Assembly (NCBI RefSeq): GCF_001704155.1
Contig: NZ_CP016294.1
Span: forward strand, 1,547,501-1,611,500
Direction: 5' to 3'
Source of the DNA: Stenotrophomonas rhizophila
Lineage (GTDB): Bacteria; Pseudomonadota; Gammaproteobacteria; Xanthomonadales; Xanthomonadaceae
Length of the DNA stretch: 64,000 nt
A program made the position numbers and the translations under genes. How positions within the stretch are numbered: position 1 is the stretch's first letter; the number at the start of each line of letters is the position of its first letter. The notes under the pieces are model-generated. The model ran no database searches, was not told the origin of the DNA, and saw nothing but the letters and a program-made list of their open reading frames with translations. This document shows positions 48,070-63,791 of the stretch, in pieces.

Positions 48070-48942
48070 TCAATCAAACGTCCAGAACGCCGGTTGGATG
48101 CCCTTGCGCCAATACGATTCACCGGCAAGGAAGAACTTCTGTGCCTCGGCCTTGGCAAACCATCCGGCGGCCGCCGCCTCATCCCGCGGCACCCCCGGCG
48201 GCGCACGGCCCAGGAGCAGGCCCGTGAAGTACTGGCCGAACACGTTGCCCTGCAGGGCGGCCTTGCGGTACCACTGCAGCGCCATCGCAGGGTCGCGTTC
48301 GATCCCCAGGCCCATGCCCCTTTCGTAAAGCGCGCCGAGGTCCACCTGGGCCTGCGCATCGCCGCGCGCAGCGCGCCGCTGGATATCGACCACCAGCGGG
48401 TGCAGTGCACCGGCTTGCGGGGCAATCGCGGCGGGCAGGCCCGAACTGCTGGTCGAATAGCGCTGGTAAACCGTGGCGCGCAGGTCCCAGCGCAGTGCTG
48501 CGGCCGCGTGGCCACGTTCGCGTTCGAATTTTGCAAGCGACAGCATCGCGCCCGGACTGCCGTGGTTGGCTGCGGCGAGGTACCAGCGCCCGGCCTTGCG
48601 CGGCGACGCACGCAGCACCGGGGGCGGCGTGTCTTCAGGGCGACGGCCGGTATACATCGCACCGCTGGCCCAGATCCGCCCCAGCGCTTCTTCCGCAATG
48701 GTATTGCGGAAACTCCAGGGCGTGGCGGCCGCAGCGCGCTCATACCAGTCCAGCGCCCGGCGGTCGTTCCAGCGTTCGTAACGTTCGGCCAGCTCCAGCA
48801 TGCCCTCGATGTCGCCGCGCTCGGCGGCGGTGAGCCACTTCACTTCGGTATCGCTGGTCGGGCGGTTGGGGGCGGTGGTGCACGCGGCCAGAGCCAGCAG
48901 CGCCAGCGCGGAAAGCGACAGGCGGAAACGAAGGGGATTCAT
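48070..48942 (-). CDS. Sel1-like repeat lipoprotein
   Basis: A 290-residue lipoprotein: signal with lipobox LALAAC (Cys21), then helical Sel1/TPR-like repeats (AERGDIEGMLELAERYERWNDRRALDWYERAA near residue 40, AARGDAQAQVDLGALYERGMGLGIERDPAMALQWYRKAA near 205, and GNVFGQYFTGLLLGRAPPGV). Sel1 proteins are scaffolds for protein contacts; no partner is evident. The next gene upstream is the divergent asnB leader. Confidence 0.85.
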   Translation of the reverse strand: MNPLRFRLSLSALALLALAACTTAPNRPTSDTEVKWLTAAERGDIEGMLELAERYERWNDRRALDWYERAAAATPWSFRNTIAEEALGRIWASGAMYTGRRPEDTPPPVLRASPRKAGRWYLAAANHGSPGAMLSLAKFERERGHAAAALRWDLRATVYQRYSTSSSGLPAAIAPQAGALHPLVVDIQRRAARGDAQAQVDLGALYERGMGLGIERDPAMALQWYRKAALQGNVFGQYFTGLLLGRAPPGVPRDEAAAAGWFAKAEAQKFFLAGESYWRKGIQPAFWTFD

Positions 48943-49019
48943 CCGTGAGTTCCATGAGGCAGGCGTGGATTATCCGGGATGGGGCACGTCAGGGGCTGAA
49001 TCGGTTGCGCCCGCAACAG

Positions 49020-49048
49020 TTGCGCCACGGCCAGAACAGCGGTACGGT
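49020..49048 (+). promoter_or_regulatory. candidate promoter of the asnB leader
   Basis: TTGCGC (49020-49025), a 17-base spacer and TACGGT (49043-49048). The predicted start site is within a base or two of the leader ATG at 49055, and no Shine-Dalgarno sequence precedes that ATG, so the leader peptide may be read from a leaderless mRNA. Confidence 0.4.
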
Positions 49049-49054
49049 CGATCC

Positions 49055-49153
49055 ATGTCCACGCTCCTGGCCACCGCCGTCACCACCAACAACCGCAATA
49101 ACCTGCGCGCGAATAATCGTGCGCGGCCAATGCGGGACTGCGACCAGGGCTAG
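49055..49153 (+). CDS. asparagine-rich leader peptide of asnB
   Basis: A 32-codon ORF, MSTLLATAVTTNNRNNLRA continuing NNRARP, with six asparagine codons in three pairs (codons 12-13, 15-16 and 20-21) and an Asp and Gln near the end. It stops at TAG 49151-49153, 27 bases before a Rho-independent terminator. Short leaders enriched for the end-product amino acid are the hallmark of translational attenuation (trp, his, leu, thr). Stalling at Asn codons when charged Asn-tRNA is short would favour expression of asparagine synthetase. Confidence 0.85.
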   Translation: MSTLLATAVTTNNRNNLRANNRARPMRDCDQG

Positions 49154-49211
49154 AACAAGCAACATACGCCCGGACCCCAGAAAACCCGCATCGGCCGATG
49201 CGGGTTTTTTT
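49093..49211 (+). promoter_or_regulatory. asnB: asnB attenuator: antiterminator and terminator
   Basis: Terminator: AAAACCCGCATC (49181-49192) pairs perfectly with GATGCGGGTTTT (49197-49208), loop GGCC, followed by a T-run to 49211. Antiterminator: GGCCAATGCGGG (49125-49136) pairs with CCCGCATCGGCC (49185-49196) with one mismatch, destroying the terminator's 5' arm. Protector: CCGCA (49093-49097, within Asn-Arg-Asn codons) can pair with TGCGG (49131-49135), around hairpin 49105-49112/49117-49124. A ribosome stalled on Asn codons blocks the protector and lets the antiterminator form; free translation gives termination. Confidence 0.8.
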
Positions 49212-49272
49212 GTTTTGTGGCCGGTCGAATGCAGGCATTACGTGTATTCCCCCATCATCAGGAGCTGTTCCC

Positions 49273-50967
49273 ATGTGTTCGATCTTCGGAATGTTCGGCC
49301 TGCAGGCCGGCGATGACCTCACCGCGCTGCGCCGCCACGCGCTGGACCTGTCGCAACGCCAGCGCCATCGCGGCCCGGACTGGAGCGGGGTATACGTCGA
49401 TGACGGCGCCATCCTGGTCCATGAGCGGCTGGCCATCGTCGACCCGGCCGGCGGCTCGCAGCCGCTGCTGTCCGACGACGGCAGCCTGGCGCTGGCGGTC
49501 AACGGCGAGATCTACAACCACCGCGAACTCAAGGCCGAACTGGCGCAGCCGTATGCGTTCCAGACCGGCTCGGACTGCGAGGTGATCAACGCGCTGTACC
49601 AGCAGGATACCCCGGCGTCGTACCTGAACCGCCTCAACGGCATTTTCGCATTCGCGCTGTGGGATCGGACCCAGAAGCGCGTGCTTATCGCGCGCGATCC
49701 GATCGGCGTGGTGCCGCTGTACTGGGGCCACGACAACGACGGCCGCCTGCTGGTGGCCTCCGAACTGAAATCGCTGGTGGATACCTGCGCCGACGCCGCG
49801 CAGTTCCCGCCCGGCCACTGGTATGACAGCGCCACCGACACGCTCACCCGCTACTACGAGCGCCCGTGGCGCGACTATGACGCGGTGGAAGGCGTCGACG
49901 CTGATCGCGTGGCTCTGCGTGAAGCGTTCGAGCGCGCCGTGCACCGGCAGCTGATGACCGACGTGCCCTACGGCGTGCTGCTGTCCGGCGGTCTTGATTC
50001 CTCGCTGGTCGCCGCCGTGGCTGCACGCTATGCCCGCCACCGCATCGAAGATGGCGACCAGAGCGAGGCCTGGTGGCCGCGCCTGCATTCGTTCGCCATC
50101 GGCCTGAAGGGTTCGCCCGACCTGGCCGCCGCTGCCATCGCCGCCGAAGCGCTCGGCACCGTCCACCACGGTTTCGAGTACACCTTCGAAGAAGGGCTGG
50201 ATGCACTGCCCGACGTGATCCGCCACGTGGAAACCTACGACGTCACCACCATCCGCGCCTCCACCCCGATGTTCCTGCTGGCGAGACGGATCAAGGCGAT
50301 GGGCGTAAAGATGGTGCTCTCCGGTGAGGGCAGCGACGAAATCTTCGGCGGCTACCTGTACTTCCACAAAGCGCCCAACGCCCGCGAGTTCCACGAAGAG
50401 CTGGTGCGCAAGCTGGATGCGCTGAACAACTACGACTGCCTGCGCGCCAACAAATCGATGATGGCCTGGGGCGTGGAGCCGCGCGTGCCGTTCCTGGACC
50501 GCGAATTCCTCGACGTGGCGATGCGCATCGATGCGAAGCACAAGATGGTCGGGCAGGGCGCCGCTGGCGCGCGCCGGATCGAGAAAGCGGTGCTGCGCGA
50601 GGCGTTCGAAGGCTACCTGCCGGATTCGATCCTCTGGCGGCAGAAGGAGCAGTTCAGCGATGGCGTGGGCTATGGCTGGATCGATGGGCTCAAGGCGCAC
50701 GCCGAAGCCCAGATCAGCGACCGGGTGATGGCCGCAGCGGACAAGCGCTTCGTGCACAACCCGCCGCAGACCAAGGAGGCGTATTACTACCGCCACGTGT
50801 TCGAGCAGTACTTCCCGACCCAGGCCGCGGCTGAAACCGTGCCCGGCGGCAAGTCGATCGCCTGTTCGTCGCCGGCCGCGATCGCTTGGGACGCCAGTTT
50901 CGCCAGCATGGCCGACCCGTCCGGCCGCGCCGTTGCCGGTGTGCATGAGCAAGCCTTGGCCGGGTAG
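49273..50967 (+). CDS. asnB: glutamine-hydrolysing asparagine synthetase B
   Basis: A 564-residue enzyme making asparagine from aspartate, glutamine and ATP. Cys2 (MCSIFGMFG) is the glutaminase nucleophile of the N-terminal class II amidotransferase domain (to about residue 205), with RHRGPDWSG and NGEIYNHRELK. The synthetase domain has the ATP-binding LSGGLDSSL (about 237-245) and LSGEGSDEIFGGYLYFH. The start is ATG 49273, with CAGGAG before it, 61 bases after the attenuator. The TAG stop lies in a GTAG REP element. The gene is under the Asn-leader attenuator. Confidence 0.97.
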   Translation: MCSIFGMFGLQAGDDLTALRRHALDLSQRQRHRGPDWSGVYVDDGAILVHERLAIVDPAGGSQPLLSDDGSLALAVNGEIYNHRELKAELAQPYAFQTGSDCEVINALYQQDTPASYLNRLNGIFAFALWDRTQKRVLIARDPIGVVPLYWGHDNDGRLLVASELKSLVDTCADAAQFPPGHWYDSATDTLTRYYERPWRDYDAVEGVDADRVALREAFERAVHRQLMTDVPYGVLLSGGLDSSLVAAVAARYARHRIEDGDQSEAWWPRLHSFAIGLKGSPDLAAAAIAAEALGTVHHGFEYTFEEGLDALPDVIRHVETYDVTTIRASTPMFLLARRIKAMGVKMVLSGEGSDEIFGGYLYFHKAPNAREFHEELVRKLDALNNYDCLRANKSMMAWGVEPRVPFLDREFLDVAMRIDAKHKMVGQGAAGARRIEKAVLREAFEGYLPDSILWRQKEQFSDGVGYGWIDGLKAHAEAQISDRVMAAADKRFVHNPPQTKEAYYYRHVFEQYFPTQAAAETVPGGKSIACSSPAAIAWDASFASMADPSGRAVAGVHEQALAG

Positions 50968-63488: not shown

Positions 63489-63575
63489 TGGTGCCCAGGA
63501 GAGGACTCGAACCTCCACGAAGTTGCCCCCGCTAGCACCTGAAGCTAGTGCGTCTACCAATTCCGCCACCTGGGC
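63489..63575 (-). tRNA. tRNA-Leu (anticodon CAG), copy 1
   Basis: An 87-base class II tRNA with encoded CCA. The acceptor stem is GCCCAGG/CCTGGGC and the D arm GGCGGAATTGGTAGACGC. The anticodon stem-loop CTAGC-TTCAGGT-GCTAG reads CAG, for codon CUG. A long variable arm is present (GCGGGGGCAACTTCGT) and the T arm GGAGGTTCGAGTCCTC. It is one of two tandem copies about 216 bases apart. Confidence 0.97.
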
Positions 63576-63704: not shown

Positions 63705-63791
63705 TGGTGCCCAGAAGAGGACTCGAACCTCCACGAAGTTGCCCCCGCTAGCACCTGAAGCTAGTGCGTCTACCAATTCCGCCATCTGGGC
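63705..63791 (-). tRNA. tRNA-Leu (anticodon CAG), copy 2
   Basis: Same 87-base gene as copy 1 except for acceptor pair 7-66, which is A-T here (GCCCAGA/TCTGGGC) and G-C there, a compensated change. It has its own promoter (63806-63834) and terminator. Confidence 0.97.

Follow-up and report, generated by a model that had tools for sequence, protein, structure and literature searches.

A candidate asparagine-sensing transcription attenuator upstream of asnB in Stenotrophomonas and related bacteria

The asnB gene of Stenotrophomonas rhizophila is very probably controlled by a trp/his-type, ribosome-mediated transcription attenuator, which would sense charged tRNA-Asn. The gene lies in the window analysed here, a stretch of 64,000 nucleotides from a host genome of 4.2 Mb in a single contig. 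The leader, its Asn codons, the terminator, the alternative pairings, their conservation, a partial recoding and an AsnRS without detectable GatB all come from the sequence and from comparison with relatives. A preliminary description of this DNA had recognised the parts of a classical trp/his-type attenuator sensing Asn-tRNA, and conservation, pairings and folding support that reading.

The proposed course of events is as follows. RNA polymerase would start at or beside the leader AUG, and a ribosome, loading probably on a leaderless transcript, would follow it. The supply of charged tRNA-Asn would then decide between two outcomes: i) when Asn-tRNA is ample, the ribosome would reach the stop codon and cover strand 2, so that the terminator would form and termination would release a leader RNA of about 157 nt, and ii) when Asn-tRNA is scarce, the ribosome would stall on the Asn codons and cover strand 1, and strand 2, left free, would pair with strand 3 ahead of the synthesis of strand 4. 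In the second case no terminator would form and asnB would be transcribed. Start site, stalling, termination and response to asparagine are the steps that we infer in this reading.

The leader reading frame and its conservation

The features are collected in Table 1. The preliminary description had claimed a 32-codon leader with six Asn codons in pairs, and this is borne out at 49055-49153. Among the 611 short ORFs of the window (15-45 amino acids, both strands) the asnB leader is the single case with at least five Asn, and 40 dinucleotide shuffles of the window gave 0.075 short ORFs per window with at least five Asn and none with at least six. Given these shuffles and the conservation described below, the leader is beyond chance. 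One might suspect a chance ORF next to an ordinary terminator that ends some transcription unit further upstream, since other weak model matches in the genome include plain terminators behind genes; both the shuffles and the conservation of the Asn codons contradict it, the long ORF upstream of the leader (48070-48942, a putative gene) lies on the minus strand and reads away, and we take its probability to be practically nil.

Table 1. Features of the asnB upstream region, in window coordinates
Feature	Position	Strand	Basis or remarks
Palindrome GTTGC-N4-GCAAC then GTTGC	49004-49023	+	second GTTGC overlaps the -35-like box; candidate regulator site
-35-like box TTGCGC, 17-nt spacer	49020-49025	+	predicted; -36 to -33 relative to the leader ATG conserved (107 loci)
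-10-like box TACGGT	49043-49048	+	predicted; ends 6 nt before the leader ATG
Leader ORF MSTLLATAVTTNNRNNLRANNRARPMRDCDQG	49055-49153	+	32 codons, Asn at 12, 13, 15, 16, 20, 21; without Shine-Dalgarno
Strand 1, putative protector CCGCA	49093-49097	+	pairs with TGCGG 49131-49135; would be covered by a ribosome halted on any one of the Asn codons
7-bp hairpin	49105-49111/49118-49124	+	the third Asn pair AATAAT makes up exactly the loop; belongs to the putative 1:2 (pause/protector) structure
Strand 2, antiterminator 5' strand GGCCAATGCGGG	49125-49136	+	pairing, alignment, duplex energies
Small hairpin CC-GGGC / GCCC-GG over the leader stop codon	49144-49173	+	within the antiterminator loop
Intrinsic terminator (3:4) with T-run	49181-49211	+	terminator scan, fold, alignment
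Strand 3, terminator 5' arm and loop	49185-49196	+	alternative partner of strand 2
Shine-Dalgarno-like AGGAGC of asnB	49260-49265	+	sequence
asnB, glutamine-hydrolysing asparagine synthase B	49273-50967	+	NCBIfam NF006949 PRK09431, 869 bits, cut-off 499

A full-length AsnB match was found in 87 of 91 genomes of the genus, and the nearest named relatives of the protein, among the best 80 of 513 listed, belong to Stenotrophomonas (isolate UBA4619, 99%; S. rhizophila DE0483, 97%). We compared 167 asnB upstream regions, made up of 30 genus loci, 57 fetched genus regions and the best 80 of the 513 named loci, with some genomes counted twice. Within this sample, those best 80 of 513 included, a leader with at least four Asn stands in 165 of the 167 regions, and a terminator follows the leader in 164 by script and in one more (L166) by eye. 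The two regions without a leader (L044 and L048) come from contigs labelled as Alphaproteobacteria, namely Tardiphaga (a metagenome-assembled genome, MAG) and Rhodopseudomonas, where an AsnB 91-92% identical to that of the window lies behind another coding frame; this is an apparent transfer of asnB minus its attenuator, with misbinning possible for the MAG. On a contig titled Bacillus subtilis SK7B5 (L040), a Stenotrophomonas-type asnB with its leader was seen at 96% identity, probably a contamination or a mislabelled record.

For the family and order, 220 upstream regions were gathered, 217 of them with a leader, and 17 regions of divergent AsnB were kept outside the 220. Dropping 90% redundancy, starts within 60 bases of a region edge and N stretches left 107 non-redundant loci, whose leaders carry 3-12 Asn each (mean 6.5). 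At a closer range, 164 segments were reduced to 122 distinct ones and then to an alignment of 75 non-redundant sequences, the window included. In this alignment Asn is kept at N20 in 74 of 75 sequences (AAT 53, AAC 21) and at N15 in 67 of 75 (AAT 37, AAC 30). The third base thus swaps between C and T with the amino acid unchanged, and Asn has been kept through synonymous change. Two leaders (L141 and L160) contain a duplicated RARNRARP, which gives a longer peptide with one extra Asn codon downstream of the usual pairs.

RNA pairings and the modelled ribosome

The preliminary description had further claimed a perfect terminator hairpin with T-run at 49181-49211, an 11 of 12 pairing of 49125-49136 with 49185-49196, and a protector pairing where an Asn-stalled ribosome sits. 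All three are found. The stem of the hairpin has 12 Watson-Crick pairs (49181-49192/49197-49208) around a GGCC loop; the G-T pair 49180/49209 brings it to 13 pairs and -20.3 kcal/mol, and the terminator scan counts 14 pairs. The pairing of GGCCAATGCGGG with strand 3 is interrupted by a single mismatch, A49129-C49192, a position that is G-C in 68 of the 75 aligned sequences, so that the window is a slightly weaker case of the antiterminator. The protector forms 5 of 5 pairs around the 7-bp hairpin and lies under the ribosome at all six Asn codons for an assumed footprint of 30 nt. The fold z-score of 49050-49215 is -4.2.

Across the alignment of 75 sequences, paired cells make up 93% of the antiterminator helix, 98% of the terminator, 98% of the CCGCA/TGCGG protector and 85% of its inner stem; at equilibrium the protector is weaker than the antiterminator. 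Two pairs of protector and terminator are changed on both sides, a number reached by 52 of 500 shuffles, and the covariation of the protector-terminator structure (0.059 vs 0.056 in shuffles, 36 of 500) hardly exceeds the shuffles. Protector and terminator pairs show too little variation for more than weak covariation. For the antiterminator structure it is 0.094 vs 0.055 shuffled (0 of 500), chiefly through the helix over the stop codon, where one pair reads C-G in 36 of the 75 sequences and T-A in 31; the local fold z-score of this small hairpin is -0.44 over 106 loci, which gives it little fold-energy support. Conservation in relatives of the Asn codons, and of the pairings through base changes, had been set beforehand as the test of the attenuator, and their loss in close relatives would have refuted it. 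The leader (165 of 167 regions, the best 80 of 513 among them) and the pairings are indeed kept; in protector and terminator the base-changed pairs are few and the covariation is weak.

In the full-length window transcript, protector plus terminator (-64.9) is preferred over the antiterminator (-54.3). The truncated transcript without a ribosome slightly favours the antiterminator (-47.8 against -45.2 for the protector), so that the untranslated state would depend on the order of folding. Translation was modelled crudely: the transcript was cut at the terminator loop and folded while the 30 nt under the ribosome were barred from pairing. In the window, a stall at codons 2-20 then leaves 12-13 antiterminator nt, one at codon 21 leaves 7.1, stalls at codons 22-32 leave 0.1-3.2, and 0.2 remain with the ribosome at the stop. 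The same fold was applied to 106 loci, the 107 less L288. A breakpoint was present in 101 and absent in 5, and in 71 of the 101 the last Asn codon lay 0-3 codons ahead of the first blocking one; in 20 the block came before the last Asn codon and in 10 more than 3 codons after it. Both strict limits hold in 45 of the 106 loci, since 60 of the 106 keep more than 3 antiterminator nt with the ribosome at the stop. In this model, the antiterminator would form for a ribosome stalled no further along than about the last Asn codon.

The model also bears on the Asp and Gln codons near the end of the leader, which the preliminary description had pointed out as those of the two substrates of AsnB. After the last Asn, Asp occurs in 75, Gln in 30 and both in 24 of the 107 leaders. 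Stalls at D28, D30 or Q31 of the window give 0.3-0.4 antiterminator nt, so starvation for Asp or Gln would not relieve termination, and we reject the sensing of substrates by these codons.

Might any stalled ribosome cause read-through, the leader being a general sensor of translation without Asn specificity? The modelled stalls leave room for this, as one anywhere before about the last Asn codon permits the antiterminator, and codons for Ala and Arg are frequent (18% and 16% of the residues in the 107 leaders). Asn is nevertheless the commonest leader residue (21%), and adjacent Asn are found in 103 of the 107 leaders. In addition, several leaders of a second family of the order read NNANN or NNANTN where the first family has NNRNN, so the Arg between the Asn pairs is not kept. 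We consider a general sensor improbable and retain the attenuator specific for Asn.

Deeper relatives, promoter side and tRNA charging

A leader with at least three Asn is present in all of twenty loci from the same family whose AsnB is about 80-85% identical and which were picked mostly for having no strong covariance-model match; most of these leaders have other endings (ASLPRAGD, TSLHGAGD, ARPPQAGD) and other terminators (CCCGCGC, GGCCTGCAC). Of 53 genomes selected from the family and order, 36 gave an AsnB match, and the upstream region was inspected in all 36. At an AsnB identity of at least 69%, a leader with at least four Asn was found in 18 of 19 regions, 16 of them from the second family of the order (f12), and one genome (G093, AsnB 76% identical) is without it. 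Within f12 the leader is present in 16 of 17 regions, the 17th genome having an AsnB of 66% identity and no leader, and six further f12 genomes of the 53 gave no AsnB match. At 68% identity or less, none of the ORFs listed upstream in 17 loci has at least four Asn, and two of the 17 have scattered three-Asn ORFs. In the class-wide search, 4 of 274 genomes gave an AsnB match at E 1e-150. Three of the four belong to the genome of the window itself, its genus or its family, so that hardly any comparison with other orders was possible; upstream of the fourth match there is no Asn cluster.

Leader end and terminator appear to have been recoded together in some of the deeper clades. A terminator was found by script in 106 of the 107 non-redundant loci, the script missing L288 though a long stem is listed there. 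In the remaining 106, leader and terminator 5' arm form a duplex with a mean energy of -21.7 kcal/mol for cognate partners, -16.1 with the terminators of other clades and -13.1 with shuffled leaders, and the cognate duplex is better in 93% of the loci. The CCCGCAT and GGCCCGC groups show this effect clearly; in the other two of the four groups, CCCGCGC and GCCYGCAC, own terminators paired no better than some others'. These clades also bear on the idea that a functional small protein or a nascent-chain arrest peptide is what is conserved, the RNA pairings being secondary. The NNRARPMR stretch, nearly invariant in the 75 aligned sequences, would suit such a peptide. In other clades, however, the peptide ends are wholly different (SLPRAGD, PPQAGD, GWAGV) and the terminators differ too, as expected if RNA pairing and not peptide sequence is selected, and we hold a peptide function of this kind to be very unlikely beside the attenuator.

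Tallies of covariance-model matches (229 of 297 family draws, 175 of 299 order draws) were set aside as evidence because the weak matches include plain terminators. Two of 20 matches inspected (L222 and L236) lie away from asnB and have no clustered-Asn leader, and double elements in two genomes (G357 and G119) look like assembly artefacts (an N run between the copies; two contigs of one draft genome). The best match outside the asnB region in the same genome (L173, G000:C1:3518300-3518408) joins a short ORF with LLVLVLI to a terminator, in front of a gene that, judged from its start, we take to be IlvC-like; this Leu/Val/Ile-codon leader is likely to be another attenuator.

On the promoter side, a strict sigma-70 consensus scan found no promoter upstream of the leader. 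Because the -10-like box ends 6 nt before the ATG, the transcript is predicted to begin at or beside the AUG. A TANNNT ending 5-8 nt before the ATG is present in 66 of the 107 loci vs 0-2 of 107 in four control windows, and a looser -10 pattern in 87 of 107 vs 1-22 in the controls. By clade, the TANNNT box occurs in 59 of 61 CCCGCAT-clade loci and in 7 of the other 46, which may have boxes of a different form or a misassigned start. In the same 107 loci, the leader ATG shows no Shine-Dalgarno (median -3.2 vs -3.5 kcal/mol in shuffles), and the asnB start has a strong one (median -6.6 kcal/mol, 96% at -4.5 or better). The absent Shine-Dalgarno and the TANNNT box 6-8 nt before the ATG suggest that leader translation is probably leaderless in the CCCGCAT clade of the window. 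The palindrome beside the -35 box is perhaps the binding site of a regulator. With at most one mismatch it occurs a single time in the whole genome; 54 of the 61 non-redundant CCCGCAT-clade leaders have it with 0-1 mismatches of 15, and one of the other 46 with fewer than three.

For the attenuator to respond to asparagine, the charging of tRNA-Asn matters. AsnRS (asnS) scores above the cut-off in 58 of 60 family genomes, and GatB was found in none of the 60 by a search that detects gatB in 12 of 14 control genomes. With AsnRS present and GatB undetected, charging should depend on free asparagine, which is the product of the AsnB encoded downstream of the leader. Gram-positive bacteria have Asn-specific T-boxes, and a T-box or another RNA that binds tRNA-Asn or asparagine directly could in principle serve the same end. 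Rfam at the gathering threshold gave no leader family or T-box near asnB, and a sensitive search of 48950-49290 gave ten sub-threshold matches with no T-box among them; Thr_leader, Leu_leader, isrK and others of these overlap the terminator, where Thr_leader scores 20.9 bits against a gathering score of 55. As the conserved element is moreover a reading frame with synonymous variation, we give a direct RNA sensor hardly any credence. The sole Rfam matches of the window at gathering level are two tRNA genes on the minus strand (63492-63575 and 63708-63791). A list of genes down-regulated by DSF quorum sensing in X. citri contains asnB along with his and thr genes (PMC6337780), which is neither a test of the attenuator nor a contradiction.

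Comparison with known attenuators

Peptide-leader transcription attenuators are known for the trp, his, leu, thr, ilv and phe operons of Proteobacteria. The asnB leader resembles them in its tandem codons for the product amino acid, its set of putative protector, antiterminator and terminator and the biosynthetic gene behind it, and differs in its proposed Asn specificity, in its asnB target and in having no Rfam match at gathering score. Vitreschak (2004) and the group of Seliverstov and Lyubetsky reportedly carried out comparative work on attenuation. Our literature search, of partial coverage, found no Asn-sensing peptide leader, and an earlier prediction is possible. The mechanism would be a textbook one; what appears new is Asn as the sensed amino acid, with a probably leaderless start. 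If this is true, ribosome-mediated attenuation would extend to asparagine as a sensed amino acid, and a concrete, testable control mechanism would be at hand for asnB in Stenotrophomonas, Xanthomonas and relatives. Since the leader spans two families and its end and the terminator have changed together in some clades, it also offers a natural data set for joint constraints of coding and RNA pairing.

Several published accounts are close to parts of this proposal. The genome-wide survey of premature terminators by Naville and Gautheret (2010), leader peptides included, has no mention of the word asparagine in its main text (PMC2965389). The same is true of the main text on Streptomyces lividans, where several leader peptides are leaderless and the eight leaders listed concern Leu, Trp, Ala, Ile, Met and Thr (PMC8079986). 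The transcript of Sinorhizobium meliloti trpL is described as starting at the leader AUG (PMC7298713). A start at the leader AUG is thus reported for S. meliloti trpL and the S. lividans leaders and predicted for the asnB leader, the amino acids being different. One may go further and imagine an old leaderless Asn-tRNA attenuator, spread over two or more families of the order. Its leader RNA (about 157 nt, from the AUG) and Asn-rich peptide would also act in trans like the reported rnTrpL and peTrpL, with the -35 palindrome as a second layer of control; we find this extended picture unlikely. As regards translation, the predicted leaderless start would tie the asnB leader to the leaderless leaders of Streptomyces and Sinorhizobium.
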